Below are positions 1,604 to 55,386 of a stretch of 55,395 nt of DNA, one piece after another. Both the position numbers and the translations under genes were made by a program. A model generated the notes under the pieces. That model was not told the DNA's origin. It saw only the letters and a list, made by a program, of their open reading frames with translations, and did no database searches. Each line of letters begins with the position of its first letter. Position 1 is the stretch's first letter. This DNA comes from Flavobacteriia bacterium (GTDB lineage Bacteria; Bacteroidota; Bacteroidia; Flavobacteriales_D; Crocinitomicaceae): the NCBI GenBank assembly GCA_016178305.1, contig JACOTM010000111.1:1-55395 (forward strand), read 5' to 3'.

Positions 1604-2476
1604 TTAATGTGTATTTAATTGTGCTAATTTTTGAAAAAGTTCTTTTTGTTGATCTGTTAAATTGGTAGGGATTTTTACAGTGAATGTAAGAATTAAATCT
1701 CCAAATTCCTTGTCCTTTTTATAATAAGGCATTCCTTTACCTTTCAATTTTACTTTCGTATTGTTTTGAGTTTCAGGTTTTACTTTTAATTTAACCTTTC
1801 CATGTAAAGTGTCTATTGTAATTTCACCACCTAACACAGCAGTTGTAAAGTCAATGTCTTGATTTACATATAATGTAGCGCCATCCCGTTTGAATTGAGA
1901 ATGATTTTCAATAATAAAAGTAATGTATAAATCTCCTTTAGGACCACCATTTCTTCCTTCACCACCCATACTGTTTATTTTGATGGTTTGTCCATTTTCA
2001 ACACCAGCAGGTATCGTCAAGCGAATATTTTTCCCTTGAATATTCAGTGTTTGCTTTTGTGTTTCAAGCACGTCTGACAAATTCAAATGTAATTCGGTGC
2101 TCAAATCAGGTCCTTTAAATGAAGCTCTTTGAGAACGTTGTCCTCCTCCAAACATCGATTCAAAGAAATTAGAATAATCGGTGTCGTTAAATCCTTCGGT
2201 AGAATAATTGCTTTGTTTGGAGTATTGTTTTTGTTTCTCAAATTCATCAGCATGTTTCCAGTTTTCACCGTATTTGTCGTATTTTTTTCGTTTTTCAGGA
2301 TCACTTAAAACTTCCTGAGCTTCGTTTATTTCTTGAAATTTGACTTTGGCATTTTCATCATTTGGGTTTACATCAGGGTGATATTTTCGAGCTAATTTTC
2401 GATATGCTTTTTTAATATCGGTTTCGCTTGCTGCTTTATCAATTTCTAAAATTTTATAATAATCAATAAATGCCAT
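1604..2476 (-). CDS. cbpA: DnaJ-class co-chaperone CbpA-like
   Basis: An Hsp40 co-chaperone that would stimulate DnaK ATPase and deliver unfolded clients. The J domain covers residues about 4-68 with the HPD motif in KYHPDVNP. A Gly/Gln-rich linker ([10 protein letters not shown]) follows, then two DnaJ C-terminal beta domains (from about residue 122: [17 protein letters not shown], and [17 protein letters not shown]). The cysteine-rich zinc domain of true DnaJ is absent, which places it in the CbpA/type II class (290 residues is usual). It is followed by cbpM 10 bp downstream, and a Bacteroidetes-type promoter lies upstream. Confidence 0.92.
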
Positions 2477-2499
2477 TTGTTTTCAGATTTAATTTGATA

Positions 2500-2528
2500 C
2501 AAGTGTAAATTTCATTTTTATTATTCAA
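2500..2528 (-). promoter_or_regulatory. Candidate promoter of cbpA-cbpM
   Basis: On the minus strand a TTG (complement of 2526-2528), an 18-base spacer and TACACTTG (complement of 2500-2507) match the Bacteroidetes promoter pattern TTG/TTTG-N17-23-TAnnTTTG with one mismatch. It lies 23 bases upstream of the cbpA ATG. Confidence 0.45.
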
Positions 2529-2601
2529 TAAAACAATGATTATTATCAGAAATTTTGAAGTGTTCAAAAAAGCAAGCTGTTTTTTCTAAAATTAAAGTGT
2601 T

Positions 2602-3054
2602 TTAGTTGTTATGAAATGTATTTAACCATTCTTTTGCTTTAATTTCTGAACGAAATATATTAACGGGTTTTGCTGGTCTGTAAACTTTCAAATAAATATT
2701 TCCAATTATTTGATGCCCTAAATTATTGATTACATACGCCTCAGCTATACATGCTTTTTTTCCTTCTGGAGTAGCCGAAAAAGTCATTGCTTTAGGTGAA
2801 AATGTAACATATTCTCCCACACGAATTAATGCTAAAGCTGGTTTGTTTTCTGTAAGAAGAAGGCATTCTTGAATTAATTGTTCTACTTTATTTTCACAAA
2901 TTTCAAAACCGCTGTATAATTCAATTTCAATTAAAGAATTATTAATAAATTTAATTTGTGCAAATGGTAATACTTTTTTACTGAAACTTTCTTTTTTTGT
3001 TAAAGAATTTTCATCCAATTCAATAGCATCAATAAATGAATTGTTAAATTTCAT
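2602..3054 (-). CDS. STAS/SEC14-like domain protein (DUF7793-type)
   Basis: A soluble 150-residue protein with no signal peptide. The C-terminal half (AEAYVINNLGHQIIGNIYLKV, then PAKPVNIFRSEIKAKEWLNTF) has the typical end of the Bacteroidetes STAS/SEC14-like family, in which a conserved stretch about not falling below zero of a SpoIIAA-like fold ends with a F..x..A..WL helix. The biochemical role of this family is unknown. It is transcribed divergently from bioB and has no obvious operon partner; cbpA lies downstream on the same strand, 125 bp away. Confidence 0.6.
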   Translation of the reverse strand: MKFNNSFIDAIELDENSLTKKESFSKKVLPFAQIKFINNSLIEIELYSGFEICENKVEQLIQECLLLTENKPALALIRVGEYVTFSPKAMTFSATPEGKKACIAEAYVINNLGHQIIGNIYLKVYRPAKPVNIFRSEIKAKEWLNTFHNN

Positions 3055-3451
3055 TGTGAAGTAGTTGTAATATGTGTGTTAAAAAATAAACATTAAATTG
3101 TTTTTATAACGTAACATTTGTTTGCTTGGTGTAAAGTTAAAATAAAATTTTAAAATCAATCAATGTAAATAATTATTTTTAAGTTAATTACCTGTGATTA
3201 TTGGATTGTTATTAATTCTAAATATTATTGTTCTCTTAGATTTTATAAGTTCTATAAAGCTTTTAATTTGGGTATTCAATTGTCAAAAATGAATTAATTA
3301 TTAGGAAAACTTTTTTTAGTCAATCTTTCAGGTTAATATAAATGCTAAAATGCTAAGCTTGTTTGAAGAATTACCGCAATTAAATAACAATTAGAATAAT
3401 TGACTTCAAATAACCTTTTCATTATCTTTGCACCAAAATAAATTAGCAAGC
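3055..3451. other. Divergent intergenic region, STAS-like gene / bioB
   Basis: About 400 bp of very AT-rich sequence between two divergent genes. Its right end holds a clear bioB promoter. I see no convincing promoter for the leftward gene, no BirA-like long palindrome, and no RNA structure I can name. Confidence 0.6.
3400..3430 (+). promoter_or_regulatory. bioB promoter (Bacteroidetes -33/-7 type)
   Basis: TTGAC at 3400-3404 and TATCTTTG at 3423-3430 match TTG-N-TAnnTTTG with a spacer of about 20 bases. The box ends 21 bases before the bioB ATG. The TTG at 3428-3430, which is in frame with bioB and could be mistaken for a start codon, is part of this -7 box and would not be inside the transcript. 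Confidence 0.75.
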
Positions 3452-4552
3452 ATGAAAGTTAATCCGAAATATAATACAAAAGAAGCTCTTTTAGAGTTGT
3501 ATAATAAACCCCTTTTAGAGTTAGTTTTTGAAGCAGCAACTATTCACCGACAGTTTCACAATCCAAGAGAAGTTCAAATGTCATCTTTGATTAGTATCAA
3601 AACGGGTGGATGTTCTGAAGATTGCGGATATTGTCCTCAAGCAGCAAGATATAGTACTGATATTGATGTACATAAATTAATGACAGTTGATTCCGTGATT
3701 GAGCAAGCGAAAAATGCAAAAGAAAACGGTTCTTCTCGTTTGTGTATGGGAGCTGCTTGGAGAGAAGTGAGAGATAACAAAGATTTCGACAATGTAGTTG
3801 AAATGGTTTCGGCTGTAAATAATTTAGGAATGGAAGTTTGTTGTACTTTAGGTATGATGAACGAAGATCAAGCGAAACGTTTGAAAAATGCAGGTTTATT
3901 TGCATATAATCATAATTTAGATACATCAAAAGAATTTTACGGTGATGTTATTTCTACAAGAGAATACGAAGATCGTTTAAATACAATTGACAATGCTCGT
4001 AAAGCAGGAATTACGGTTTGTTCAGGTGGTATCATCGGAATGGGTGAGGCTGTTGAAGATCGTGTTGGTTTGTTGATGAGCTACATGGAAATGGAAACAC
4101 CACCAGATTCTATTCCTATCAATGCTTTAGTAGCGATTGAAGGAACGCCTTTAGAAGATCAAAAACCAATTGAACAATGGGAATTGATTCGTATGGTTGC
4201 AATGACAAGAATTGCATTTCCTGAATCAGTTGTACGTTTATCAGCTGGTAGAACAAAAATGAATATGGAAGCACAAGCTTTATGTTTCATGGCTGGAGCG
4301 GGTTCTATTTTCGCAGGAGATAAATTATTAACGACTCCAAATCCAGAATATAACGAAGATAAAGAAATGTTTGATATTTTAGGTTTAATTGCCAAAGCAC
4401 CTTTTGCAGATGGTGAACAACCTGTTTCAAATCCAGACGAAATCATCGAAGCAAGAAAAGCAAAAGAAGTACAAAGAGCAATCGAATTAGAAGAAGCAAA
4501 AAAAGCAGGTTTCGAACCTCGTAAAGTTACTTCTGTTGAAAGTCTTGGATAA
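3452..4552 (+). CDS. bioB: Biotin synthase
   Basis: A radical SAM enzyme that inserts sulfur into dethiobiotin in the last step of biotin synthesis. The radical SAM cluster cysteines are C54, C58 and C61 (GGCSEDCGYCPQAARY), typical of BioB, and YNHNLDTS and LVAIEGTPLED match the family core. Length (366 residues) is normal. I start at the ATG at 3452 (MKVNPKYNTKEALL) rather than at the in-frame TTG at 3428, because that TTG lies in the promoter -7 box. The rest of the biotin pathway is not in the window, so this is a stand-alone bioB, with its own promoter. Confidence 0.97.
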   Translation: MKVNPKYNTKEALLELYNKPLLELVFEAATIHRQFHNPREVQMSSLISIKTGGCSEDCGYCPQAARYSTDIDVHKLMTVDSVIEQAKNAKENGSSRLCMGAAWREVRDNKDFDNVVEMVSAVNNLGMEVCCTLGMMNEDQAKRLKNAGLFAYNHNLDTSKEFYGDVISTREYEDRLNTIDNARKAGITVCSGGIIGMGEAVEDRVGLLMSYMEMETPPDSIPINALVAIEGTPLEDQKPIEQWELIRMVAMTRIAFPESVVRLSAGRTKMNMEAQALCFMAGAGSIFAGDKLLTTPNPEYNEDKEMFDILGLIAKAPFADGEQPVSNPDEIIEARKAKEVQRAIELEEAKKAGFEPRKVTSVESLG

Positions 4553-4750
4553 TCAGTTTTTTCTATTCAACTCTAGAATGACTTTTATTGTTAATCTGAG
4601 ATTCGGCGTTAAAGTATAGTCCGTTCTTACGTGTTTACAAATGAATAAGAAAGTTGTTTTTTAATACGCTGAGGTTAATGATAAAATTTATCAATCGTTT
4701 AGGTTACTATACTAAAGAATAGTGTGACTCAATTCTGTTTACTAATTGCT

Positions 4751-4758
4751 TACTTTTG
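4751..4758 (+). promoter_or_regulatory. -7 box of the pirin-nitroreductase operon
   Basis: TACTTTTG matches TAnnTTTG and ends 18 bases before the ATG at 4777. No clear TTTG is seen at the right distance upstream. The in-frame TTG at 4756 lies inside the box, which argues against it as a start. Confidence 0.6.
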
Positions 4759-4776
4759 TATAGTAAAAGAAAAGAA

Positions 4777-5490
4777 ATGGAATTTATATTATATCCAGCA
4801 AACGAAAGAGGACATGCAGATCATGGGTGGTTGAAAGCGAAACATTCGTTCAGTTTTGCTAATTGGTACAATCCAGATAAAATGCATTTTGGTGCATTAC
4901 GTGTATTGAATGATGATATCGTTGCGCCTAAAATGGGATTTGGAACGCACCCTCATGACAACATGGAAATCATTACCATTCCATTGAAAGGAAAATTGGA
5001 ACATAAAGATTCAATGGGCCATTCTTCAGTAATTACAACGGGAGAAATTCAAGTCATGAGTGCTGGAACTGGTATTTTACACAGTGAATTTAATGCTAGT
5101 CTAACAGAAGAGATTCATTTATTTCAAATTTGGATCTTCCCGAATAAAAAAAATGTAACTCCACGATACGATCAAATAAATATTAATTACGCAAAAGCCG
5201 AAAATAATTTCTTACAATTAATTTCTCCAAATGAAACTGATGAAGGTTCTTGGATTAACCAAGATGCTTGGATTTTTATCAATAAACCTTCAAAGGGAAC
5301 TGAAATTACTTATTCAATTAAAAAAGAAGGAAATGGAATTTATATAATGGTGATTGAAGGAAGTGCGACAATTGAAAGAAATAAGTTGTTAAAAAGAGAT
5401 GCAATTGGTATTTACGATACAACAGAAGTGTGTATTTTAGCCCACGAAAATAGTGAAATTTTAATCATCGAAGTTCCGATGGTTTTTTAA
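4777..5490 (+). CDS. Pirin family protein (YhhW-like bicupin)
   Basis: A 237-residue pirin: N-terminal cupin with the metal site HADHGWLKAKHSFSF ... FGTHPHDNMEIITIPLKG ... GHSSVITTGEIQVMSAGTGILHSEFN, then a C-terminal cupin-like half. The pirin histidines and glutamate (HPHDNMEI ... HSE) are all visible. Characterised relatives such as YhhW have quercetinase activity in vitro; the physiological substrate is unknown. The ATG at 4777 (MEFILYPANERG) is chosen over an in-frame TTG at 4756, which is inside a -7 promoter box. A nitroreductase follows 11 bp downstream, a pairing often seen in Bacteroidetes redox operons. Confidence 0.92.
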   Translation: MEFILYPANERGHADHGWLKAKHSFSFANWYNPDKMHFGALRVLNDDIVAPKMGFGTHPHDNMEIITIPLKGKLEHKDSMGHSSVITTGEIQVMSAGTGILHSEFNASLTEEIHLFQIWIFPNKKNVTPRYDQININYAKAENNFLQLISPNETDEGSWINQDAWIFINKPSKGTEITYSIKKEGNGIYIMVIEGSATIERNKLLKRDAIGIYDTTEVCILAHENSEILIIEVPMVF

Positions 5491-5501
5491 TATTAGAAAA
5501 C

Positions 5502-6134
5502 ATGAATAAAATAATAGAAGATTTGAAGTGGCGATATGCTACTAAAAAATATGATTCAACAAAAAAAGTAAGCATTGAAAACATTGAGATTATCAAAGAT
5601 GCTTTAAGATTAACTCCTACAGCTTTTGGGTTACAACCATTGAAATTTATCATTGTTGAAAATCAGGATGTTCGGTTGAAATTGAAAGAAAAATCACACA
5701 ATCAAGAACAAGTTGTAGATGCGTCACATTTACTTGTTTTATGTTCATATATTGATAATACGGAAATTCATGTCGAAGATTATATTGATTTGATTGTTGA
5801 TACTAGAAATGTTGCAAAAGAAAATTTAGAGGGATTTAAAGAGTATATAAATAATACAATCAACCCAATTCCTCTTGAAACAAAAACGATATGGAACGCA
5901 AAACAAGCTTATATTGCATTAGGTAATTTATTGCATACTTGTGCTGCATTAAGAATTGACGCTACTCCAATGGAAGGTTTTGAACCAGAAGGATATGATG
6001 AAGTTTTGGGTTTGAAAGCAAAAAATTTGAAAGCAACAATCGTTTGTCCAATTGGTTACAGACACCCAGAAGATCGTTACCAGCATTTAACAAAAGTCCG
6101 TAAACACCATGATGACTTGTTTGAAGTGATTTAA
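5502..6134 (+). CDS. Nitroreductase family NAD(P)H oxidoreductase
   Basis: A flavin-dependent nitroreductase-fold enzyme, 210 residues. Residues 9-20 (LKWRYATKKYDS) and 39-55 (TPTAFGLQPLKFIIVEN) form the N-terminal FMN-binding signature of the NfsB/dihydropteridine reductase group, and AYIALGNLLHTCAALRIDATPMEGFEP is the family's C-terminal flavin-site motif. Substrate is not predictable from sequence (nitroaromatics, quinones or dihydropteridines are possible). It lies 11 bp after the pirin gene, so the two are almost surely cotranscribed. A strong hairpin ends the unit about 60 bp downstream. Confidence 0.92.
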   Translation: MNKIIEDLKWRYATKKYDSTKKVSIENIEIIKDALRLTPTAFGLQPLKFIIVENQDVRLKLKEKSHNQEQVVDASHLLVLCSYIDNTEIHVEDYIDLIVDTRNVAKENLEGFKEYINNTINPIPLETKTIWNAKQAYIALGNLLHTCAALRIDATPMEGFEPEGYDEVLGLKAKNLKATIVCPIGYRHPEDRYQHLTKVRKHHDDLFEVI

Positions 6135-6582
6135 ACCTTGGTTCATTTAATATTTATCTTTCCCCATTAAATTCAACAGAATTTCACCAAAAAAATAGAA
6201 ACTTCAATGCATGATTAGAAAACATGCATTGAAGTTTCTTTGATAATTTTCAAATATTAGAGCAATTAACGACACCTTTTTTAAATCTAAGACATAAAAA
6301 TTGGAAAATAAAAGAATTTTATGCAACCTATTACATTCTTTTTAGCTGAATTTTAATTTTTTTAAACAGCTATAAAATAATGTTTTAACACAGATTTGTT
6401 AACTTTTTCACGGATAATTTTCTAACTTTTTCATTCAATGGATAGGGGGTTACTTTTTTACAATCGTCAATTATGAGAGATCTCATATTGCAAAAATAAA
6501 ATAAAATAAAATAATTTTCTTCAAATAGTATTTCACTATTCACAATTGAAATTTTTAAGGTAAACAAATTAATATAAAAAAG
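6135..6582. other. Intergenic region upstream of the poly-gamma-glutamate operon
   Basis: This 448-bp gap holds the terminator of the nitroreductase unit (6197-6239), an A/T-rich run with four AAAAT-like repeats (about 6492-6514), and two short inverted repeats: TATGAG-N4-CTCATA at 6472-6487 and AATAGT-N5-ACTATT at 6524-6540. The last lies about 43 bases before pgsB and could be an operator, but that is speculation. I find no clear TAnnTTTG box on the plus strand. Confidence 0.5.
6197..6239 (+). terminator. Hairpin terminator after the nitroreductase gene
   Basis: A perfect 17-bp inverted repeat (AGAAACTTCAATGCATG and its complement) with a 9-base A-rich loop, followed by a T-rich stretch. 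It sits 62 bp after the nitroreductase stop codon. Confidence 0.75.
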
Positions 6583-7758
6583 ATGATAAGTTTTTATGTT
6601 ACTGGCATTCTATTGCTTATAGTTTTGGTGTATGGATTATTAGAATACCAAATTCATCAACGCTATGTGAAATCTATTCCAATTAGAATTCATGTTAATG
6701 GAACTAGAGGGAAATCAAGTGTCACAAGGTTGATAGGTGCTGGTTTGAGATCGGGAGGAATTAAAACTTTTACAAAAGTGACAGGAACTTTTCCCCGACT
6801 TATTTTCCCTGACGGTAGTGAAGCAGCTATTCATAGAAAAGAAAAAGCAAATATTTTAGAACAATTAGATATTATTAAATATTGTGCTAAAAATAATGCA
6901 GAAGTATTGATTATTGAATGTATGGCTTTACAACCGCAATTTCAACGAATTACTGAATTGCAAATGGTGAAGTCAACAATTGGAGTAATTACAAATATCC
7001 GATTGGATCATCTAGATGTAATGGGGCCAGGACTTGAAGATGTAGGGAAAGCATTAAGTGGTACGATACCTGCAAAATCGAAATTGTTTACAAGTGAAGA
7101 ACGCTGTATTGATATTTTGGGTAAAGTTTCGACAAAGCGTAAGACTGAAATTCATCAATCGTTAGCGAAGCAAATAAGTGATGAAGATATGATTGGATTC
7201 ACTTATATCGAACATAAAGATAATGTTGCTTTAGCTTTAGATATTTGCTTGTCATTGGGAATGGATAGAGAAAAAGCTTTAGCTGAAATGAAGAAAACAA
7301 TTCCAGACGAAGGAGTTTTGACTAAAGCGGTAATTCAAATAGATAATAAAGTGATTGATTTTTACAATGCTTTTGCCGCGAATGATCCAGAATCATCGTT
7401 AATGATTTGGAATAGTATTGTTTCAACGTATGATTCCAATACATGCTTCATTATCTTATTGAATACTCGAAAAGATAGACAAGATAGAGCGCGACAATTA
7501 ATTGAATTAATAGCAACAGGTATTCAAGCGCATAAAGTTGCTTTAATTGGGGAGTCTGTAGAATTGGTTTGTGAAATGGCTCAAAAAAACAAAATTCCAG
7601 AAAATAAAATAATAGCTATTGGATCGAAACCTACAAATGAAGTATATGCTGCATTATGTAATTGTTCTGAAGCAAAAACAGTTATTGTAGGTATTGGAAA
7701 CATGGGGGCAGGAGGAGCTGAACTTGTCAAATATTTTGAATCAGAAAGTAAAATTTAA
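6583..7758 (+). CDS. pgsB: Poly-gamma-glutamate synthase subunit PgsB (CapB)
   Basis: The Mur-ligase-like ATP-dependent amide ligase that polymerises glutamate through its gamma-carboxyl. Residues 2-20 form an N-terminal membrane helix, and HVNGTRGKSSVTRLI (about 37-51) is the P-loop. Further family motifs are visible: KVTGTFPR, NILEQ, ECMALQPQFQ, TNIRLDHLDVMGP, NAFAANDPESS and LLNTRKDRQDRARQLIEL. The 391-residue length is typical. It is the first gene of a compact operon pgsB-pgsC-pgsW followed by three envelope proteins. It contains its own start at 6583 preceded by an A-rich leader. PgsB is the key polymerase, acting at the inner membrane with PgsC. Confidence 0.95.
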   Translation: MISFYVTGILLLIVLVYGLLEYQIHQRYVKSIPIRIHVNGTRGKSSVTRLIGAGLRSGGIKTFTKVTGTFPRLIFPDGSEAAIHRKEKANILEQLDIIKYCAKNNAEVLIIECMALQPQFQRITELQMVKSTIGVITNIRLDHLDVMGPGLEDVGKALSGTIPAKSKLFTSEERCIDILGKVSTKRKTEIHQSLAKQISDEDMIGFTYIEHKDNVALALDICLSLGMDREKALAEMKKTIPDEGVLTKAVIQIDNKVIDFYNAFAANDPESSLMIWNSIVSTYDSNTCFIILLNTRKDRQDRARQLIELIATGIQAHKVALIGESVELVCEMAQKNKIPENKIIAIGSKPTNEVYAALCNCSEAKTVIVGIGNMGAGGAELVKYFESESKI

Positions 7759-7768
7759 ATTAATAATT

Positions 7769-8224
7769 ATGATAGAATTATCAATTACATTAGGAATCGT
7801 ATTAAGTCTCTTATTTATTGAAGCTTTTGGTTTGGCTGCTGGAGGAGTAATTATTCCAGGTTATATCGCTTTACAATTAACACACTTTGACCATATTCTT
7901 GGAACAATTGTGATTTCATTTTTTACATTTTTAATACTGAAACTGATATCTAAATTCACGTTTTTATTCGGACGCCGTCAAATGGTAGTCGCTTTATTAA
8001 TAGGAACTTTATTATCAATTCTGTCGCATCATTTATTTATCATTAATACAGCACAAGATACCAATGAATTTAGTGCTGTTGGTTGGGTTATACCAGGATT
8101 AATAGCTCATTGGTCTGCAAAACAAGGCTATGTAAAAACAATTGCGATGTTATCATTAACATCTGTTATTGTGAGATTAGCAGTTATTGTATGTTTTAAT
8201 GGAGCAATGATTGACTGGAATTAA
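7769..8224 (+). CDS. pgsC: Poly-gamma-glutamate synthase subunit PgsC (CapC)
   Basis: A small polytopic membrane protein of 151 residues, the usual PgsC length (about 149). It starts MIELSITLGIVLSLLFIEAFG and keeps the family motif GLAAGGVIIPGYIALQL near residues 20-38, followed by hydrophobic helices around 43-60, 70-90, 105-120 and 128-145. PgsC forms the membrane complex with PgsB and is needed for polymer synthesis and membrane passage. The ATG at 7769, 10 bp after the pgsB stop, is preferred to an upstream in-frame ATG at 7694, which lies inside pgsB and would add a non-family N-terminus. Confidence 0.94.
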   Translation: MIELSITLGIVLSLLFIEAFGLAAGGVIIPGYIALQLTHFDHILGTIVISFFTFLILKLISKFTFLFGRRQMVVALLIGTLLSILSHHLFIINTAQDTNEFSAVGWVIPGLIAHWSAKQGYVKTIAMLSLTSVIVRLAVIVCFNGAMIDWN

Positions 8225-8262
8225 TACACACGGAAAGTTTTTTTGAATCTTAAATAATTAAT

Positions 8263-9384
8263 ATGACACGTATGAAAGCAAAAATTTCAATTCGTTCAAC
8301 TTTTATTTTGTCTGCAATGGCAATACTTTCGATTTCATTGTTTTTAATAATTGAAAAAACGAAAAGAAATGAAAAAGAAGAATGGTTTGATGAAAAAATA
8401 GAAGCGGTAAATTTAGCTGCTCAAGCAATGAAGCATTTGAAAAATTTTCGTTATAAAGATGTTGAATTTGTTGAGAATATTAATGATCCGAATGAAACAG
8501 GATTAATAGGTGAGCAATATACTTCTATCACAACAGGAAATGGTTCTTTACCAATAAAATTATCGACGTTAAACCCTAATATAGCTGCAATAATTGTAGA
8601 GATGCTGAAAGAGTCGAATGTGAAACAAGGTGATTATGTTGCTGTTTGTATGACTGGTTCGTTTCCCGGAATGAATATTTCAACAATGGCAGCAATTCAA
8701 ACTTTAAAGCTAAAACCAATATTAATTTCATCTGTAACTTCTTCCTCTTGGGGAGCAAATAATCCAGATTTTACATGGTTAGATATGGAAGGTGAACTAT
8801 ATCGGAGTAAAATTTTCTTAAATAGATCCATTGCGGCTTCAATAGGTGGAAATTTTGATATAGGTCGAGGTTTGAGTTTAGAAGGAAGAGATATAGTTTT
8901 AGATGCCATGAAGCGAAATCACCAAAAACAAATTAATGGAAAAGATGTTTTTGAAAACATTAATAAAAGAATGTATTTGTTTAAAAAGAAATCTAAAAAT
9001 CAAATCAAAGCTTTTATTAATGTAGGAGGGGGAGTTGCAAGCATTGGAAGTGAACAAAATGGAGAGAATGTACCAACAGGACTCAACCATCATTTAAAAT
9101 TAAAACGATTAAAAGATAAAAAAGGGGTCATTTTTGAAATGGCAAAACAAGATGTTCCAATCATTCATTTATTAAGATTAGAGGGGTTGTTTGATAAATA
9201 TGAAATTCCGATTGATCCAACCCCAATGCCCAAGAAAGGTGAAGGAAAAATCTTTTATTCAATGAAATATCAGGTTTCTATTGTACTTCCATTTTTAATG
9301 CTAATCGTTTCATTATTATTAGTCATTATCTATATCGATAAAAAACAAAATGCTTTAGGAAAAGAAATTGTTAAATCAAATTAA
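8263..9384 (+). CDS. pgsW: Poly-gamma-glutamate system protein PgsW-type
   Basis: A 373-residue protein with one membrane helix near each end (about residues 13-30 and 338-360) and a large domain between. It matches the protein that accompanies PgsB and PgsC in Gram-negative-type clusters (poly-gamma-glutamate system protein). The central conserved part has CMTGSFPGMNISTMAAIQTL (near 128-147), SSVTSSSWGANNPDFTWLDME, and NVGGGVASIG. Its exact reaction is not established; it appears where the CapA/PgsA metallophosphatase of Gram-positive systems is missing, as here. It starts 38 bp after pgsC; an ATG 9 bases into the gene is an alternative start. Confidence 0.85.
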   Translation: MTRMKAKISIRSTFILSAMAILSISLFLIIEKTKRNEKEEWFDEKIEAVNLAAQAMKHLKNFRYKDVEFVENINDPNETGLIGEQYTSITTGNGSLPIKLSTLNPNIAAIIVEMLKESNVKQGDYVAVCMTGSFPGMNISTMAAIQTLKLKPILISSVTSSSWGANNPDFTWLDMEGELYRSKIFLNRSIAASIGGNFDIGRGLSLEGRDIVLDAMKRNHQKQINGKDVFENINKRMYLFKKKSKNQIKAFINVGGGVASIGSEQNGENVPTGLNHHLKLKRLKDKKGVIFEMAKQDVPIIHLLRLEGLFDKYEIPIDPTPMPKKGEGKIFYSMKYQVSIVLPFLMLIVSLLLVIIYIDKKQNALGKEIVKSN

Positions 9385-49405: not shown

Positions 49406-49522
49406 GTGGTCAACATGACCGGAATCTCGAGGCATAAATATCCAACAGCTACCGAAAAATACAAGCAAACACACCTCGAAGAATTGAAAAATCAGGTCTT
49501 AAAATTTCATCCGCTTCAATAA
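49406..49522 (+). pseudogene. Remnant of a tyrosine recombinase C-terminus
   Basis: The frame from 49406 reads VVNMTGISRHKYPTATEKYK then QTHLEELKNQVLKFHPLQ and stop. From RHKYPTATEKY on it aligns with the end of the recombinase at 52185 (HRYISSTEEYLWGDLESLKN then DINTFHPL): same catalytic Tyr position (TEKY/TEEY), same HPL end. Nothing upstream in frame continues the domain; a stop (TAG) lies just before. It is a leftover of a related recombinase whose gene body is gone. Confidence 0.75.
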
Positions 49523-49563
49523 ATCAGCATCATTTTTTTCTTTACTCATACTGTTTTTTTTTT

Positions 49564-49614
49564 TTTTCAATTGAATTCGTGAGAAAAGTTCATTAGACTA
49601 AATTTTCAATTGAA
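49564..49614. promoter_or_regulatory. Twin palindromic TTTTCAATTGAA sites before the first Rhs tip gene
   Basis: Two exact 12-base copies, each containing the palindrome TTCAATTGAA, 39 bp apart (49564-49575 and 49603-49614), 32 bp upstream of the ATG at 49646. They could be binding sites for a dimeric regulator. Inference only. Confidence 0.35.
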
Positions 49615-49645
49615 AGAAAAAAAACTCTACTTTTAGACTTCTGAA

Positions 49646-50812
49646 ATGGGTTGCTTACGGCTAAATATCGAAAATCCTGTATTGTTGAGAGTTCTCAACG
49701 GTAGAAAATCGACAAATCCAAAAAGTAGTGAACGGTCTTACTGGTTCGGTTACAACGGCATGGAAAAAGACCCCGAAATTAAAGGAGAAGGAAACAGCTA
49801 TACAACCGAGTTTAGGCAGTATGACCCGAGGTTGGGGAGATGGTTGTCTTTGGATCCGTTGATGTCCCAATTTCCGTGGATGAGTCCGTATGTGGCGTTT
49901 GATAATAATCCTATTTTCTTTGTTGATCCATTAGGGTTAGCAGCTGAGGGAGGAGATGATCCCAAAACCCATGAATTAAAGAAAGGTGAGAATTTGAGTA
50001 TTCTCGCTAAAAAATATAATGTCTCAATAGAGCAATTACAAACTTGGAATCCAGGGACAAAAGGAAGAGAAACTAAACTTCAAATAGGTGAAAAGATAAT
50101 TGTTTCAGATCCTTCAAGTAGTGGTTCTGGTACTGCTGAAACCAAACAAGCTGAGGACTTATGGACTAAAGAAGAATATGAAGAGCGTTTAGAAAATCCT
50201 GCAATTAATACAATGGCTATTGGAATTTCAACAGCTGCAAATTCAGAGTGGGGCGGAGTTGGAGCAACAATGGACACAGATATGTCCGAAGAAGAAAAGC
50301 AAGATGTATTCAAAGAAGATGGATTAAAAACCGTGTGCATTTTGTTGATGGAATTTCATCAAGGAATAGGACATCGAACACGTGTTTTCCATGAAAGTGA
50401 AGGCGATAAAATTACAGAAGATGTTAAATGGTCAGCACAAACGTATTTGGCTCTTGAATACTTGGAAAAAAAATGGATGGAAGGTAAAGTTCAATTGGGA
50501 CAGTCTGTACCTTTCAAATCTGAAACTAGTCCTGGACAAGTAGGCATAGGAACTTCGATTTGGGCACACGGAAATCAATTCTTTCATAATAGAACTTCTT
50601 TTTATTTAGGGGGAATGGAATACACTATGTGGATTTATCAAGGTATGATTGTATTCAAAGTTGTGAATGATTTTACAATATCTTCAGGAGTGACTAAGGA
50701 TGATGGTAAGTCTAACCTAATACGTGTGATAGGTGAAACTTGCCCACTAGGTAATACAAAACAAGTATTCTGGTTTACACATTCCTTACCTACAGGTCCA
50801 CCTATAAGATAA
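49646..50812 (+). CDS. Orphan Rhs-tip protein with LysM domain (candidate polymorphic toxin)
   Basis: A 388-residue protein that starts MGCLRLNIENPVLLR and goes straight into the Rhs-associated core (YWFGYNGMEKDPEIKGEGNS, YTTEFRQYDPRLGRWLSLDP, residues about 30-75) and NPIFFVDPLGL, without the long YD-repeat body. A LysM domain follows at about 107-152 (HELKKGENLSILAKKYNVSI ... GEKIIV), so it may bind peptidoglycan. The remaining 230 residues are of unrecognised type; EFHQGIGHRTRVFHESEGD is a histidine-rich stretch that might be catalytic. In polymorphic toxins the domain after the Rhs core is the toxin. The gene after it is a candidate immunity gene. No signal peptide is seen. Confidence 0.75.
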   Translation: MGCLRLNIENPVLLRVLNGRKSTNPKSSERSYWFGYNGMEKDPEIKGEGNSYTTEFRQYDPRLGRWLSLDPLMSQFPWMSPYVAFDNNPIFFVDPLGLAAEGGDDPKTHELKKGENLSILAKKYNVSIEQLQTWNPGTKGRETKLQIGEKIIVSDPSSSGSGTAETKQAEDLWTKEEYEERLENPAINTMAIGISTAANSEWGGVGATMDTDMSEEEKQDVFKEDGLKTVCILLMEFHQGIGHRTRVFHESEGDKITEDVKWSAQTYLALEYLEKKWMEGKVQLGQSVPFKSETSPGQVGIGTSIWAHGNQFFHNRTSFYLGGMEYTMWIYQGMIVFKVVNDFTISSGVTKDDGKSNLIRVIGETCPLGNTKQVFWFTHSLPTGPPIR

Positions 50813-50823
50813 ATCTACAAGAA

Positions 50824-51222
50824 ATGAATTTAAAATATTTAATATCAATTGTAATATTTACATCTATAATAAGCGTAATTATACTATTCTTTGGAAGTAT
50901 GTTTTTGCCTATGTATGTAAGAGATTCTGTTGATGGTTCAACGAGTATTAAAAAAAAGATAACTGAATCTTACTATTATTACAGTAGTAACGGAATAGTT
51001 GAGGGAGATGAACAAGGGGGGATTACAATATTTGACAAAGAGGTTGACAGCATAGGATTTGACAATAAAAATATAATAGTGTATTCAAAAAATGAAAATA
51101 AATATACGACAATTAGATTATCAAATAGTAAAATAGATTCTATCACAATTAACGTTCGCTTTAAAGATTATAATTCAATTAAATTAGTTGATTTATCTTC
51201 TTTTTTAGAAAACACAAAATAA
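50824..51222 (+). CDS. Small membrane-anchored protein, candidate immunity factor
   Basis: 132 residues, N-terminal membrane helix at about 4-30 (YLISIVIFTSIISVIILFFGSMFL), the rest a soluble domain with strand-like, Asn/Asp/Ser-rich sequence (GIVEGDEQGGITIFDKEVDS). No family recognised. It starts 11 bp after the Rhs tip stop on the same strand, the normal place of a cognate immunity gene. That is inference; a plain hypothetical inner-membrane protein is equally possible. Confidence 0.5.
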   Translation: MNLKYLISIVIFTSIISVIILFFGSMFLPMYVRDSVDGSTSIKKKITESYYYYSSNGIVEGDEQGGITIFDKEVDSIGFDNKNIIVYSKNENKYTTIRLSNSKIDSITINVRFKDYNSIKLVDLSSFLENTK

Positions 51223-51529
51223 AAGTTGATTAACGTAACAAAACCGGTAAGCGGATTGTTGAATAATTAAAGTTTTAAGATTTAAAAATATTAGAAGGAG
51301 CCTAAAAAACTTCCTCTTTTTGTTTACCGTAAATTGTATCCACCTGGGAAATGTATAAGAATGTAGCATTTCGATAAATTTACCAAAATAGCATAGATGT
51401 TAAAAGACGAAATATTTAGAAATAAAAGTATTTAATAATGAAATGGTATTAGAATTTTCATGCGGTATTTTTTAAAATTAAAACAGGGTTTAAAGGTCAT
51501 CGTTAACGCTCCAAAATCAAAAAGTTATT

Positions 51530-51637
51530 AACAATTACATTTTCTTATAAATCCCTTTATTCATAAGTCTTTCAGCTTGTTTTGAGTTGTTTTCCCGTTT
51601 TGCCCATTTCCCTCATAAATACAGGTGTTTAAGGGGT
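51530..51637 (+). repeat. Direct repeat copy A (left edge of candidate mobile cassette)
   Basis: Colinear without gaps with 55279-55386; by hand count about 85 of 108 positions match. It begins AACAATTACA, has TTTCAGCTTGTTTTG at 51570-51584, and its last 28 bases (51610-51637, starting CCCTCATAAATACAGG and ending TTTAAGGGGT) are identical in both. The 28-mer is partly palindromic (CCCT ... AGGG). Similarity ends at 51637/51638. Confidence 0.8.
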
Positions 51638-51720
51638 GGTTTAAGGTTTGAAAAAGAAGAAAAGAAAGAAGCCCAAAAAGTACTAATAACCTTGAAAAGC
51701 TATTAAAACAAATTTGTCAC

Positions 51721-51813
51721 CGCAACCGCCGTAGCTAGTTGCGAAACAAACTACACAGAAAGATAAAATAACCGCCATAGCGGTAAAGGTGAAGTTTTCC
51801 GACTGGTCGGAAA
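51721..51813. repeat. Cluster of three inverted repeats
   Basis: CGCAAC-N11-GTTGCG (51721-51743), ACCGC-N4-GCGGT (51771-51784) and TTTCCGAC-TG-GTCGGAAA (51796-51813), all perfect. ACCGCC(G/A)TAGC occurs twice. They lie between repeat A and the truncated recombinase, a usual place for recombinase arm sites or a leader hairpin. Confidence 0.6.
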
Positions 51814-51835
51814 CACCCCCCAAAAAAAAGCCCCC

Positions 51836-52198
51836 TTTGATAAAAACCTGCTTTTCGTCCAAAAAGCAAAAGGAAATAAAGACCGCTATATCCCAATGAG
51901 TGAAACAGTAACCCAAAGAATGAAATTGTTTATTTATCAATACCGCAAATCGTTTAAAGTAAACCACAAAAGAGCCTTTCCGCTTACCTTACATACATTG
52001 GCGTATTACGCTAAACTACTTTTCCAAAACAGCGGACTAGAATATGAAACAGGAACAGGACTACACACTTTGCGCCACAGTATAGCAACTCACTTACTAG
52101 AAAACGGCATGAGTATAGAACAAATCGCCAAGTTTTTAGGACATTCCAGTTTAGAATCAACACAAGTCTACACCCATTTAATGAATGAAAATGAATAG
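51836..52198 (+). pseudogene. Truncated tyrosine recombinase (C-terminal catalytic half)
   Basis: From about 51836 the frame gives FDKNLLFVQKAKGNKDRYIP, then MSETVTQRMKLFIYQYRKSF and on to LHTLRHSIATHLLENGMSIE and QIAKFLGHSSLESTQVYTH. This is a canonical XerC/D-like catalytic half: Lys (AKGNKDR), HxxR (HTLRH), H (LGH) and the nucleophile Tyr (VYTH). The core-binding domain and the first catalytic Arg are missing, and a stop (TAA at 51764) closes the frame upstream, so it is a fragment, although an ATG at 51896 could give a 100-residue peptide. It overlaps the next recombinase gene by 14 bases. Confidence 0.8.
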
Positions 52199-53186
52199 TA
52201 AAGAAAGAACTTATTTTATCCGAAAAAGAGCAGAAACCAGCAAAGCTAGCACCGTAGGTAAACCGCTACAAACAACAACTACAAACTACGACAGTTTTAA
52301 ATCTTATTTGCAATCCAAAAATATATGGTTAACCACAATAGAACAATATACAGACCGAGTTGAAAAGGTTGCTAAGTGGTTACAGGAGAACAAAGGAAAA
52401 GATATAGAACAAGCCGAAAAGAAAGATATTTTAGACTATCTGCAATACATTCAAGAAACCTTAAATTATACGGCTCGTTCTCGACAACAAGTTGTCGGAA
52501 TCTTGAAACATTACTATACTTTTTTGTATCAAAACGGACAAATAGCCAACAATCCAATTTTATTAATCAAACTGCGTGGAACTAAACAAAGGATAATAAA
52601 CAAAATTTTGTCTATGGAAGAAATGAACGAACTTTTAGACACTTATTACACTTTAAAAGTACAACACGCAAAACAAGGTGGAACAGATAAGTTAGGACGT
52701 TTTCAAATCAATAAACACGTACACCAACGAAATTATTTAATACTCTCACTTTGTATTTATCAAGGGTTAAACCTTTCCGAATGGAAAAATCTAACACTTG
52801 ACGACATCAATTTACAACAGGCAACAATAAAAGTACAGGCAAAGCGCAAAAGCAACGCCCGTACTTTGTCATTACACGCAATGCAAATAGGTATATTGTA
52901 CGAATACTTACACAATACACGCCACCAGTTCAAAAATGATAACGAGTTACTTATTAACTCAAACCCAGAAGTTCAAAAACTGGCTTTAGACATTAAAAAG
53001 ATATACCCGAAGTTTACAGATTATAAACAACTCCGTGCTTCAATTATTACTTACTGGATACAAACCGAAGGACTACGCAAAGCGCAGTACAAAGCAGGAC
53101 ACCGCTACATAAGTAGCACAGAAGAATATCTTTGGGGCGACCTTGAAAGCCTTAAAAACGACATAAATACTTTTCATCCGCTTTAA
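52185..53186 (+). CDS. Tyrosine recombinase/integrase with atypical catalytic residues
   Basis: A 333-residue recombinase: core-binding domain at about 30-125 (TNYDSFKSYLQSKNIWLTTIEQYTDRVEKVAKWL) and catalytic domain at about 140-325. The usual Arg I position reads GLNLSEW (Asn196), the His of HxxR is Lys281 (YKQLR, Arg284 kept), while His306 (AGHRY) and Tyr315 (STEEY) are present. Arg-to-polar changes of this sort occur in a clade of Bacteroidetes integrase-like proteins (from memory); whether it is active is open. It starts within the end of the truncated recombinase (14-base overlap, shifted frame) and ends at a strong terminator 20 bp downstream, 130 bp before the second Rhs tip gene. Confidence 0.85.
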   Translation: MKMNSKERTYFIRKRAETSKASTVGKPLQTTTTNYDSFKSYLQSKNIWLTTIEQYTDRVEKVAKWLQENKGKDIEQAEKKDILDYLQYIQETLNYTARSRQQVVGILKHYYTFLYQNGQIANNPILLIKLRGTKQRIINKILSMEEMNELLDTYYTLKVQHAKQGGTDKLGRFQINKHVHQRNYLILSLCIYQGLNLSEWKNLTLDDINLQQATIKVQAKRKSNARTLSLHAMQIGILYEYLHNTRHQFKNDNELLINSNPEVQKLALDIKKIYPKFTDYKQLRASIITYWIQTEGLRKAQYKAGHRYISSTEEYLWGDLESLKNDINTFHPL

Positions 53187-53204
53187 ATAATCATTTACGT
53201 TTTT

Positions 53205-53240
53205 AAAATCCTTTCTCGCTTCGGCTTGAAAGGATTTTTT
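53205..53240 (+). terminator. Terminator after the recombinase gene
   Basis: An 11-bp perfect stem (AAAATCCTTTC 53205-53215 with GAAAGGATTTT 53228-53238), 12-base loop, then T. It should separate the recombinase transcript from the Rhs tip. Confidence 0.85.
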
Positions 53241-53315
53241 TATGCAAAAAATGTAACGTTCACTTATAAATTTCGTTAACTTCGTATCTTTCAATACTTG
53301 ACAAAATAGAATACA

Positions 53316-54407
53316 TTGGGTTGTTTACGGCTTACATATCACAATAATACTGACTTACAAATAGTAAAGGGGTCTAAGACCCTGACGTTAGAAAAAAGTG
53401 ATAAAAGTGTGTGTAACTCTCAAGTCTTTGGAATGGAAATGCCGGGGAAGGTAAGTAATTCAGGATCATATAAATACGGATTTTCTGGAATGGAAATGGA
53501 CAACGAAATTTCAGGGAATGGAAACAGTTATACAACGGAGTTTAGACAGTATGACCCGAGGTTAGGGCGATGGAAATCTTTGGATAATTATATGATGTTT
53601 TTTCCTTCAGAAAGTCCATATTTATATGCTGGTAATAATCCTATACAATATATTGATATTAGTGGAAATTACAGATTACCTGCGAATATAGATGAGTCAG
53701 ATTATCCTGAATTAGTTAAAGTTTTATTAGCTTATGATGCAATAGTTAAGGATAAATCAGATGCTGATATTCTCTCTAATCCAATTGTTCAGTCAATGAT
53801 AGAATGGGGACATTTTGATAAAGAAGACCCTGATTTAGCGAAAAAAATACGTGAAATTTTTAGTTATGGTTCTGGTCCAATAATTATACCCAAAAAACCT
53901 ATTGGGACAATGTTCAAGGCAATGGGATATACAAAAACTAAAAAAGCATTATTGTCAGTTAAAAAAGGAGAGAATTATAATGAATTCTACATCAACAATA
54001 CCTTAATAAAAATAATGGAAGGTAAAAAATTGGGCATATTGGATAAAATATTTTTCTTAATTAATCCAATCACAGCAAAGAGTTTTAAAAACCAACCTAA
54101 AAGGGCTATGTTATCTGTTTTTTTTACTATAGGTCATGAAGATGCACATTTAGAATCAGCAAAAAATCAAGTTGATGAACATAATGATAAAAGTAAAAAA
54201 GAGTATGGTGCAGAATTTGAAAAGGCAGCCTTTCCTGATGGGTGGAAAATGGTTGATGGAGAAATAAAAAGATTTTTTAGGGGCGCAATGTCTAATTTTG
54301 ATAGCTACATACCAAAACAAATACAAGATGGTGTTGGATTGCCAGATAATTACGATGTAAGACCACCAACAGAAAATGAAGTTGAACAAGAAAAATCAAG
54401 AGTGTAG
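53316..54407 (+). CDS. Orphan Rhs-tip protein with HEDAH metallopeptidase motif (candidate toxin)
   Basis: A 363-residue protein with TTG start. The start is fixed by identity with the first tip gene: TTGGGTTGTTTACGG against ATGGGTTGCTTACGG, giving GCLRLTYHNNTD. The Rhs-associated core follows (YKYGFSGMEMDNEISGNGNS, YTTEFRQYDPRLGRWKSLDN, and NPIQYIDISGNY to about residue 115). The C-terminal 245 residues contain FFTIGHEDAHLESAKNQVDE, with H274-E275-D-A-H278, a zinc metallopeptidase HExxH motif; no other family is recognised. The protein lacks the long YD-repeat body and a signal peptide. It has the position of a toxin before the next gene (6 bp gap). Confidence 0.75.
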   Translation: MGCLRLTYHNNTDLQIVKGSKTLTLEKSDKSVCNSQVFGMEMPGKVSNSGSYKYGFSGMEMDNEISGNGNSYTTEFRQYDPRLGRWKSLDNYMMFFPSESPYLYAGNNPIQYIDISGNYRLPANIDESDYPELVKVLLAYDAIVKDKSDADILSNPIVQSMIEWGHFDKEDPDLAKKIREIFSYGSGPIIIPKKPIGTMFKAMGYTKTKKALLSVKKGENYNEFYINNTLIKIMEGKKLGILDKIFFLINPITAKSFKNQPKRAMLSVFFTIGHEDAHLESAKNQVDEHNDKSKKEYGAEFEKAAFPDGWKMVDGEIKRFFRGAMSNFDSYIPKQIQDGVGLPDNYDVRPPTENEVEQEKSRV

Positions 54408-54412
54408 CAACC

Positions 54413-54859
54413 ATGAATTCAATCTTTTGTATCTATCGATATTGTTTCGTACTCGTATTGTTCTATTTTTTAATGGGATGTAGTAATACAGGATGTTACA
54501 ATTTAATTGAAAGCAATAAATATTCATATACAGTTTTTAAATATCATATCTCAGAAAGACAAAATAAAACCCATTGTATAATGTTTAATATAAACATTAA
54601 AAAGGATGATTTAACAATTAATGATTCAAAGATTATTATTTCTGAACTAGATGGATATGCCATTGACACATTCACGATGACAAGCAAGAAAATAAAATAT
54701 GATTTAAAAAAACAAAAGATTAAGATTTGGTTCAAATACAAGATGTATAAAGAAAAGGTATACACAAGAAAGGTGGTTGTTCCTTACCCAATAAATGACA
54801 CTATTACAACATTTAAAGGAACTTCCTCTATAGACTTTCATCCAAGAATTAGATATTAA
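54413..54859 (+). CDS. Small lipoprotein, candidate immunity factor
   Basis: A 148-residue protein with a lipoprotein signal (YRYCFVLVLFYFLMGCSNTGC, Cys at 23 as lipid site), then a lysine- and tyrosine-rich domain (IKYDLKKQKIKIWFKYKMYK ... TRKVVVPYPINDTITTF). No family recognised. It starts 6 bp after the Rhs tip gene on the same strand. A periplasm-facing lipoprotein suits immunity against a peptidase acting in the envelope; this is inference. Confidence 0.5.
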   Translation: MNSIFCIYRYCFVLVLFYFLMGCSNTGCYNLIESNKYSYTVFKYHISERQNKTHCIMFNINIKKDDLTINDSKIIISELDGYAIDTFTMTSKKIKYDLKKQKIKIWFKYKMYKEKVYTRKVVVPYPINDTITTFKGTSSIDFHPRIRY

Positions 54860-54891: not shown

Positions 54892-55164
54892 ATGAATAAA
54901 GCAGAATTAATAAGTGCAATAGCCGACAAAACAGGCAAGCAACAAAAGGAAGTAAAAGCGTTTTTAGAAGCGTTTGAAAGTACAGTAAAAGAAACGTTGA
55001 GCAAAGGCGATAAAATTACTTTAATAGGCTTCGGAACGTTTGATGTTCAGAATGTTCCTGCACGAACAGGCAGAAACCCACAAACGGGAGCGGTTTTACA
55101 GATAAAAGCTAAGAAAAAACCGAGATTTAAAGCAGGTGCAGAGTTATCGGCAACGGTAAACTAA
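54892..55164 (+). CDS. HU family DNA-binding protein
   Basis: A 90-residue HU-beta type protein: MNKAELISAIADKTGKQQKE, KITLIGFGTFDVQNVPARTG and RNPQTGAVLQIKAKKKPRFKAGAEL, which has the conserved RxGRNPxTG DNA-binding arm. HU dimers bend DNA and assist site-specific recombination. It lies inside the repeat-flanked block, 33 bp after the lipoprotein gene. It may be an accessory factor or cargo of the element; a chromosomal HU is also likely elsewhere in the genome. A terminator follows. Confidence 0.93.
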   Translation: MNKAELISAIADKTGKQQKEVKAFLEAFESTVKETLSKGDKITLIGFGTFDVQNVPARTGRNPQTGAVLQIKAKKKPRFKAGAELSATVN

Positions 55165-55225: not shown

Positions 55226-55278
55226 TCCGAAATCGTCTAAAATGGTCGTTCCAGTCCGTTAAATCCTAAAAACTTATC

Positions 55279-55386
55279 AACAATTACAAAAAATGCTAAA
55301 CCTCTTTGTTTATAAGGTTTTCAGCTTGTTTTGTGTAGATTTTTCTTTCTCACCATTCCCCTCATAAATACAGGTGTTTAAGGGGT
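55279..55386 (+). repeat. Direct repeat copy B (right edge of candidate mobile cassette)
   Basis: Partner of 51530-51637, same orientation, 3749 bp downstream. The last 28 bases (55359-55386) are identical to copy A, here preceded by one more C so that a CCCCT ... AGGGG outer palindrome forms. Only 9 bases follow before the window ends; they do not match those after copy A. Confidence 0.8.

Follow-up and report, generated by a model that had tools for sequence, protein, structure and literature searches.

The described process closest to the locus reported here is the C-terminal displacement of Rhs proteins, in which a full-length rhs gene is followed by dissociated tips with a partial core, new tips displace old ones, and circular intermediates have been proposed; according to the passages of that work considered here, no integrase had been tied to the displacement (Jackson et al. 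2009, PMC2935791). A later paper (Kirchberger et al. 2017, PMC5361080) likewise states, in the sections considered, that evidence for integrase-facilitated insertion of effector-immunity genes was lacking; its authors compare effector-immunity arrays with integrons, and propose for Vibrio that retained old immunity genes protect against kin. Integrase and transposase genes have been noted in passages on orphan toxin/immunity pairs of Rhs or contact-dependent inhibition (CDI) systems, with a suggested role in capture (Steele et al. 2017, PMC5727410; Ruhe et al. 2016, PMC4927057), and excerpts of two further papers mention recombinases near immunity arrays (PMC3482391, PMC12247911). Here we analyse a window of 55,395 bases, the complete contig C62 (JACOTM010000111.1) of a Flavobacteriia bacterium genome of 124 contigs, in which a module of recombinase end, orphan Rhs tip and small gene occurs twice. 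With a probability of about 86%, they are what is left of integrative elements, all of one family, that give rhs genes a new toxin tip in place of the old one.

The loci of relatives have the same tip layout as C-terminal displacement, but here the displaced tips lie behind recombinase pairs and the junctions lie at short core motifs, features not part of the described process as far as the passages considered go. Those on integrases near Rhs and CDI orphans (PMC5727410, PMC4927057) concern other bacteria and give no attachment site, boundary or paired recombinase. The rAID of Bacteroidales (PMC12247911) is similar in that it belongs to Bacteroidota and has a tyrosine recombinase beside interbacterial immunity genes; according to the part of that paper considered, it consists of one predicted recombinase upstream of a short immunity-gene array with conserved intergenic motifs, whereas here recombinase pairs are found inside toxin genes, together with a tip and a partner gene. 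Integrons share the tyrosine recombinase and the arrays growing by insertion with displacement of older cassettes, but they have one IntI-type integrase per array, whereas each unit described here carries its own recombinase pair and the target consists of toxin-gene codons. The one recombinase 1 scanned, from contig C77 of the window's genome, scored 107 bits, below the integron-integrase cut-off of 265 bits. Prophages and islands can swap the 3' end of the gene they enter, e.g., the e14 prophage in icd, and the same protein is restored; the present elements also integrate inside a gene and replace its 3' end, but a different tip and a partner gene are installed. A search of titles and abstract beginnings, with most subscription papers and bioRxiv outside its coverage, turned up no paper on a dedicated element whose attachment sites lie in the Rhs core.

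Results

In Bacteroidota relatives the element starts with a tip and an immunity candidate, continues with regulatory or accessory genes and a primase-like gene, and ends with tyrosine recombinase 1, recombinase 2 and a short leader, extending over approximately 6-12 kb. The tip carries a partial core, and the primase-like gene is usual, with CHC2 and Toprim domains in three of the five such proteins scanned. The architecture was counted on 79 genes for recombinase 2 that score at least 150 bits; they come from 71 larger loci, one of which is the window, and include some near-copies. Recombinase 1 adjoins recombinase 2 in all 74 genes with at least 1.2 kb of upstream sequence, in loci that were found by searching for recombinase 2, and the primase-like gene is located upstream in 58 of the 65 with at least 3 kb. 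A same-strand Rhs core follows within 4 kb in 39/50 genes with at least 4 kb downstream, and an other-strand core in 3/50. At matched length, the same-strand core was present within 1.5 kb downstream in 34/70, whereas the 34 other recombinase loci that these searches yielded had no core in their flanks of up to 1.5 kb on either strand. A small gene closely follows 44 of the 48 uncut tips, but also 327 of 463 other long frames, hence its position is weak evidence.

Five Rhs tandem arrays could be compared at three junctions (left gene/element, element/element and element/last tip), because the tandem units are identical: from primase to recombinase 2, neighbouring units agree at 5393/5393 and 4793/4793 bases in two plasmids, 3439/3439 in G1093, 3453/3453 in G685 and 4381/4381 in G016 (handles beginning with G, C and L denote genomes, contigs and loci). 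The DNA common to the three junctions is TATGGATT in the complete plasmid pAT2 of Aureibacter tunicatorum (NZ_AP025307.1), TACGAG in the complete plasmid of Aureispira sp. CCB-E (NZ_CP133672.1), TACCGTTATGGCTTC in G016, a 35-bp stretch beginning TATCCTTTTGG in G685, and TTATTATCCTTTTGG in G1093, the last read by eye. From these alignments the exchange is judged to be pinned to 6-35 bp inside the Rhs core in all five arrays, at places that encode Y-G, Y-E or P-F-G within three conserved core motifs. The same abrupt switch is visible at single insertions, with 37 bp exact from the junction in G133 and 18 bp in G558. In G1093 (C1, L248/L249), two adjacent identical machineries carry different tips, which suggests that elements can exchange their cargo.

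The three motifs are YELSNHLGN (class A), YPFG (class B) and YRYGFNG (class C). The 52 orphans located behind recombinase 2 change from leader to core at A in 7 cases, at B in 18, at C in 25 and at other places in 2. In a tree of 47 recombinase-2 proteins, whose genomes carry 17 family codes, the motif class changes seven times compared with a shuffled mean of 19.4, and none of 200 shuffles was as low. After thinning at 50% identity to 32 rows, there were again seven changes against a shuffled mean of 12.9 and a minimum of 9 (200 shuffles). One clade of 17 rows spanning several families is entirely class C. Such agreement between motif and recombinase tree is predicted by site-specific integration and not by homologous recombination within the core. 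The Gly codon of the class C target is GGC in 11/21 class C cases vs. 2/18 others, and the Tyr codons are not fixed. Because the junctions are pinned in core motifs and the motif follows the recombinase tree, site-specific integration is the most likely route by which the Rhs tips are exchanged.

The same evidence bears on a RecA-type homologous recombination between cores, which would swap tips via circular intermediates and leave the recombinase genes as mere passengers of the island. Shared junction DNA of as little as 6 and 8 bp, sequences upstream of the junction that are unrelated right up to the shared DNA, junctions that fall at three motifs instead of being spread along the core, with the motif following the recombinase tree, and a recombinase pair in 74/74 testable cases, all found via recombinase 2, make this explanation improbable in our opinion, despite it being the model put forward for enterobacterial rhs in the passages considered (PMC2935791), the recombination between an rhs gene and an orphan tip described for Salmonella in the excerpt considered (PMC4927057), and the long homologous stretches able to recombine that tandem units provide.

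The limits of the unit are indicated by the gene on the left. An open frame of 1147-4273 amino acids with the core near its C-terminus is located left of the element genes in 15 of 42 stretches (9/32 and 6/10); in one of them, G860, only a primase remnant follows. As judged from the sequences, the element sits inside an rhs gene, and the upstream body reads in frame into the tip at the left end of the element. Behind recombinase 2 lies an orphan with core sequence that is headed by a short leader instead of the body. The left gene and the first orphan carry the same tip in pAT2, the Aureispira plasmid, G685 and G016, with a different one in the last orphan, and the tip is therefore assigned to the left end of the element. 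In both plasmids and G685 this left gene is an rhs gene of full length, whereas that of G016 is an orphan as well. The original prediction had taken the tip that follows the recombinase as part of the exchanged unit; this part did not hold, since the tip behind the recombinase appears to be the displaced one and the element's own tip lies at the opposite end. In a related explanation, the target would be the spacer that follows a toxin operon, and the tip after recombinase 2 would be cargo of the element. The tip does follow the recombinase in the window and on contigs C119 and C77, and the leader start is conserved, but the four arrays named above, where identity with the left-gene side begins at the core motif, fit a unit that begins with a tip and ends with a leader, and the long left gene is open through the core into the tip in 15 stretches; we consider cargo of this kind very unlikely.

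Recombinase 1 has the complete R-K-H-R-H-Y set in 31/31 sequences, one of which (L092) is a XerD-like control; the window copy is missing its N-terminal part and does not show the full catalytic set. In recombinase 2, the aligned Arg I and the His of the HxxR motif are both absent in 36/36 sequences (for the His, one is a gap) and the catalytic set is incomplete; the second Arg is retained in 34/36, the last His in 29/36 and the Tyr in 35/36. The leader has the consensus (M/L)GCxx(L/I)xY in 16 distinct leaders, with Lys or Arg before the L/I in 14. Since its Gly and Cys codons vary synonymously among these 16, the leader is conserved as a peptide and not as a DNA site. The GCLRL start was also considered as the crossover site and was rejected on account of the synonymous codon variation and of exchanges that lie downstream. 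Judging by these comparisons, it is an element-derived leader, and the crossover is placed further in, at Y-x-Y-G, Y-P-F-G or Y-E-L-S-N-H-L-G. Leaders of the (M/L)GCxx(L/I)xY type were found with all three target classes, and many orphans carry other leaders.

Matches to the recombinase-2 profile of at least 150 bits are of the element type; below this value lies a plateau of Xer-like recombinases and element-gene fragments (G491, G145 and part of G782). One match, G298 with 167 bits, is intermediate. At E≤1e-18, the recombinase was found in at least 20 of 240 genomes family-wide, where G097 is a XerD-like false positive and G145 a fragment. Matches of ≥150 bits occur in at least 23/399 genomes of the order and at least 35/395 of the class (counted by hand), and matches at E≤1e-48 in at least 14/395 of the phylum; these genome counts are lower bounds, as each genome's candidates were scored in part. 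Two of 72,556 plasmid records matched, phage records gave no match at E≤1e-10, and a contig scan with a 3-row profile returned one match, from Flagellimonas. The same gene order in genomes of 17 family codes (tree rows) and in two complete plasmids with intact genes, together with the absence of a core near the 34 control loci, leaves next to no likelihood for a genomic scrapyard, i.e., a hotspot gathering recombinase and toxin fragments without a working relation, as might be suspected from the broken window copies and from nine tip-core matches scattered over contigs.

Members of the family may also enter other genes. In G956 (C1, 816001-850000, L250/L251), the same element family is present in tandem in a non-Rhs protein family, with a period of 8534 and 2455/2457 compared bases identical; its three junctions share TGAATTGG (by eye) and the leader resembles a signal peptide. 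In Flagellimonas sp. 389 (NZ_JAHCMU010000014.1, 2461-8447, L026), a primase-like gene and recombinases 1 and 2 are followed by a toxin-like gene and a small gene; the toxin-like gene encodes an N-terminal hydrophobic stretch, and no Rhs core was found.

Accessory genes directly behind recombinase 2 in L124, L152-L154, L157, L158, L160, L163, L164 and L166 were named by eye as ORF6N/KilA-N-like, YhcG-like, RelE-like and Fic-like. In L100, ParE-type and HTH_3 genes between the small gene and the primase were confirmed by Pfam. In L119, L120 and L121 (G107, G025 and G030), element copies and orphan-tip clusters are located beside pseudopilin-like gene clusters (by eye), and several tips of G030 share FAYNGMKLDNE. 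No conjugation or mobilisation genes were noticed in the relatives' gene lists, with no search aimed at relaxases being made.

In the window, all features lie on the forward strand, and the two modules of recombinase end, Rhs tip and small gene are present in the sequence as predicted. Both recombinase stops are located at the expected ends, 49522 and 53186, the gaps to the tips of 123 and 129 nt agree with the range given, and the tips start with ATG at 49646 and TTG at 53316. The spacing of the small genes, given before as 6-11 bp, is correct for the first (11 nt after the tip stop), while the second follows after 5 nt rather than 6. The near-identity of the tip starts amounts to 13 of the first 15 bases. 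The shared core YTTEFRQYDPRLGRW is the same in both tips, within a 99-nt stretch that is 82% identical. The divergence past the core is also borne out, as BLASTP aligns residues 1-97 with 1-117 (E=3e-28) and finds nothing meaningful beyond, and the two small proteins have no significant mutual similarity, in agreement with their description as unrelated.

The first module begins with a 3' recombinase-2 remnant (49424-49522; frames read) from a first element that is mostly deleted, and the remnant's relation to the recombinase is beyond chance: the 31 codons at 49424-49516 match positions 293-323 of the 323 profile positions (E=3.2e-6). Orphan Rhs tip 1 (49646-50812) starts with a leader of element origin that reaches to about 49738, followed by the Rhs core (TIGR03696, E=3.3e-12), a LysM domain (E=1.6e-7) and a variable C-terminus. 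By comparison with relatives, its junction would be TACTGGTTCGG at 49739-49749 (codons Y-W-F-G), a class C site. Small gene 1 (50824-51222), an immunity candidate, encodes an N-terminal hydrophobic stretch. The second module follows a direct-repeat copy at 51519-51637, presumably an element-internal region, and the C-terminal remnant of recombinase 1 at 51896-52198 (Phage_integrase, E=1.6e-15; intact in relatives), whose frame is open somewhat further upstream without a start. Recombinase 2 (52185-53186, 333 amino acids) is the degenerate partner, with the aligned Arg I and the HxxR His lost and the Tyr kept. Orphan Rhs tip 2 (53316-54407) has the leader GCLRLTY..., the Rhs core (TIGR03696, E=2.2e-11) and a variable C-terminus with HEDAH; its junction is probably AAGTCTTTGG at 53422-53431 (codons V-F-G before M), a class B site. 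Small gene 2 (54413-54859), the other immunity candidate, has a lipoprotein-like N-terminus (by eye).

Further to the right, an HU-type DNA-binding protein is encoded at 54892-55164 (PF00216, E=3.4e-32); in L093 and L099, two relatives whose recombinases fall in the same clade, HU genes lie beside the primase-like gene. The second repeat copy at 55268-55386, presumably the start of a further element copy, is 79% identical to the first, and the contig ends 9 bases past it; this 119-nt direct repeat thus brackets the second module. Both window tips score above the NCBIfam threshold for TIGR03696, the Rhs core. Apart from LysM, PADLOC and Pfam suggested no function for them, and scans of family libraries assigned no protein family to the two small genes. 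The core of tip 2 weakly matches chain A of PDB 9on3 (SGS4, 3,398 amino acids; E=0.0017), possibly a solved relative of the full-length proteins.

The recommended check for further copies, applied to the rest of the same genome, revealed a third module on C119, where a recombinase 2 of 88% identity is followed by an orphan tip and a small gene, and a fourth on C77. The latter has two intact recombinases, i.e., a recombinase 2 of 31% identity and a recombinase 1 of 311 amino acids, and a partial primase-like gene, a tip-like gene and a small gene are present in the same order. The first 100 residues of tip 1 have nine matches in the genome, scattered over contigs. A search of the genome with PF05593 found nothing, although a diverged full-length Rhs body exists as an open frame of 3,785 amino acids on C104 (3-11357, L247, G000), which runs off the contig before the core. 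Rhs body and tips are thus on separate contigs, and the layout of a displacement locus was observed in relatives, not in the window itself.

Discussion

The original prediction of a mobile system exchanging Rhs tips and partner genes by site-specific recombination is strongly supported in relatives by the junctions of 6-35 bp in the core of five arrays and by the motif choice that tracks the recombinase tree, its definition of the unit having to be reversed. We hypothesize that recombinases 1 and 2 act together on a circular form of the element and that strands are exchanged at the core motif of circle and chromosome. By integrating, the element would re-arm the Rhs protein, supplying another toxin and immunity gene, and the old tip would be displaced. 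The leader would keep the displaced tip and its small gene translated, and the cell could thus stay immune to kin that have not switched. Repeated insertion would lead to arrays, and excision could restore the old tip.

Several observations weigh against this interpretation. Circles, excision or empty sites were not observed, and the comparison covers different species throughout. In the window's own genome, recombinase 1 is truncated in the window and the rhs body on C104 ends before the core. Recombinase 2 was found at E≤1e-18 in 0/11 other genomes of the genus. For the remaining 27 of the 42 stretches, either no left gene was found or it is an orphan, lies far away or is truncated where the stretch ends. 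Eleven of the 50 elements have no same-strand core within 4 kb, 7/65 have no primase-like gene, and in four loci (L085, L090, L187 and L190) the nearest downstream core is on the opposite strand, possibly due to inverted insertion or rearrangement. Six of the 52 class calls were made by eye, the profile alignment having begun inside the leader, and two orphans (L207 and L021) do not start at a class motif. The wobble bases at the class C target are variable, and the codon phase, which agrees in 22/23 left/right core pairs, would be the same under homology alone. Once a first insertion has taken place, homologous recombination could also raise the number of tandem copies.

The window copies look decayed and inactive by their gene content, with recombinase 1 truncated and one recombinase 2 cut to its last 31 codons. 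By analogy with relatives, two insertions could be read from their order. Tip 2, with its class B junction near 53422, would be the tip displaced by an element now reduced to recombinase 2, the truncated recombinase 1 and one repeat, and tip 1 with small gene 1 would be the own cargo of this element. A later class C element, with its junction near 49739, may have cut tip 1 from its body, only the end of its recombinase 2 surviving. The HU gene and the second repeat look like the start of another element copy.

The displacement of tips and the presence of integrases near orphan tips were already known, and what is named here are the recombinase pair, the element boundaries and the candidate attachment motifs. 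How new tips are gained without loss of the old pair is a question standing since C-terminal displacement was described, and with these components named, it can therefore be reduced to a simple recombination assay. The element family would explain why Bacteroidota orphan tips share a common leader, and it would show a mobile element that may spread by renewing the weapon of its host. Whether it constitutes a new class of selfish elements is, in our estimation, evenly balanced. The attachment site of such a toxin re-arming element would be a conserved codon motif in a polymorphic-toxin delivery protein and its integration would be the tip switch, the recombinase type would set the motif entered, and the leader would keep the displaced pair expressed; the family would also enter non-Rhs exported toxins, as in G956 and possibly in Flagellimonas sp. 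389, where the leader would be like a signal peptide. If this is true, the tip arrays of Bacteroidota would be a reversible arsenal rather than fossils.

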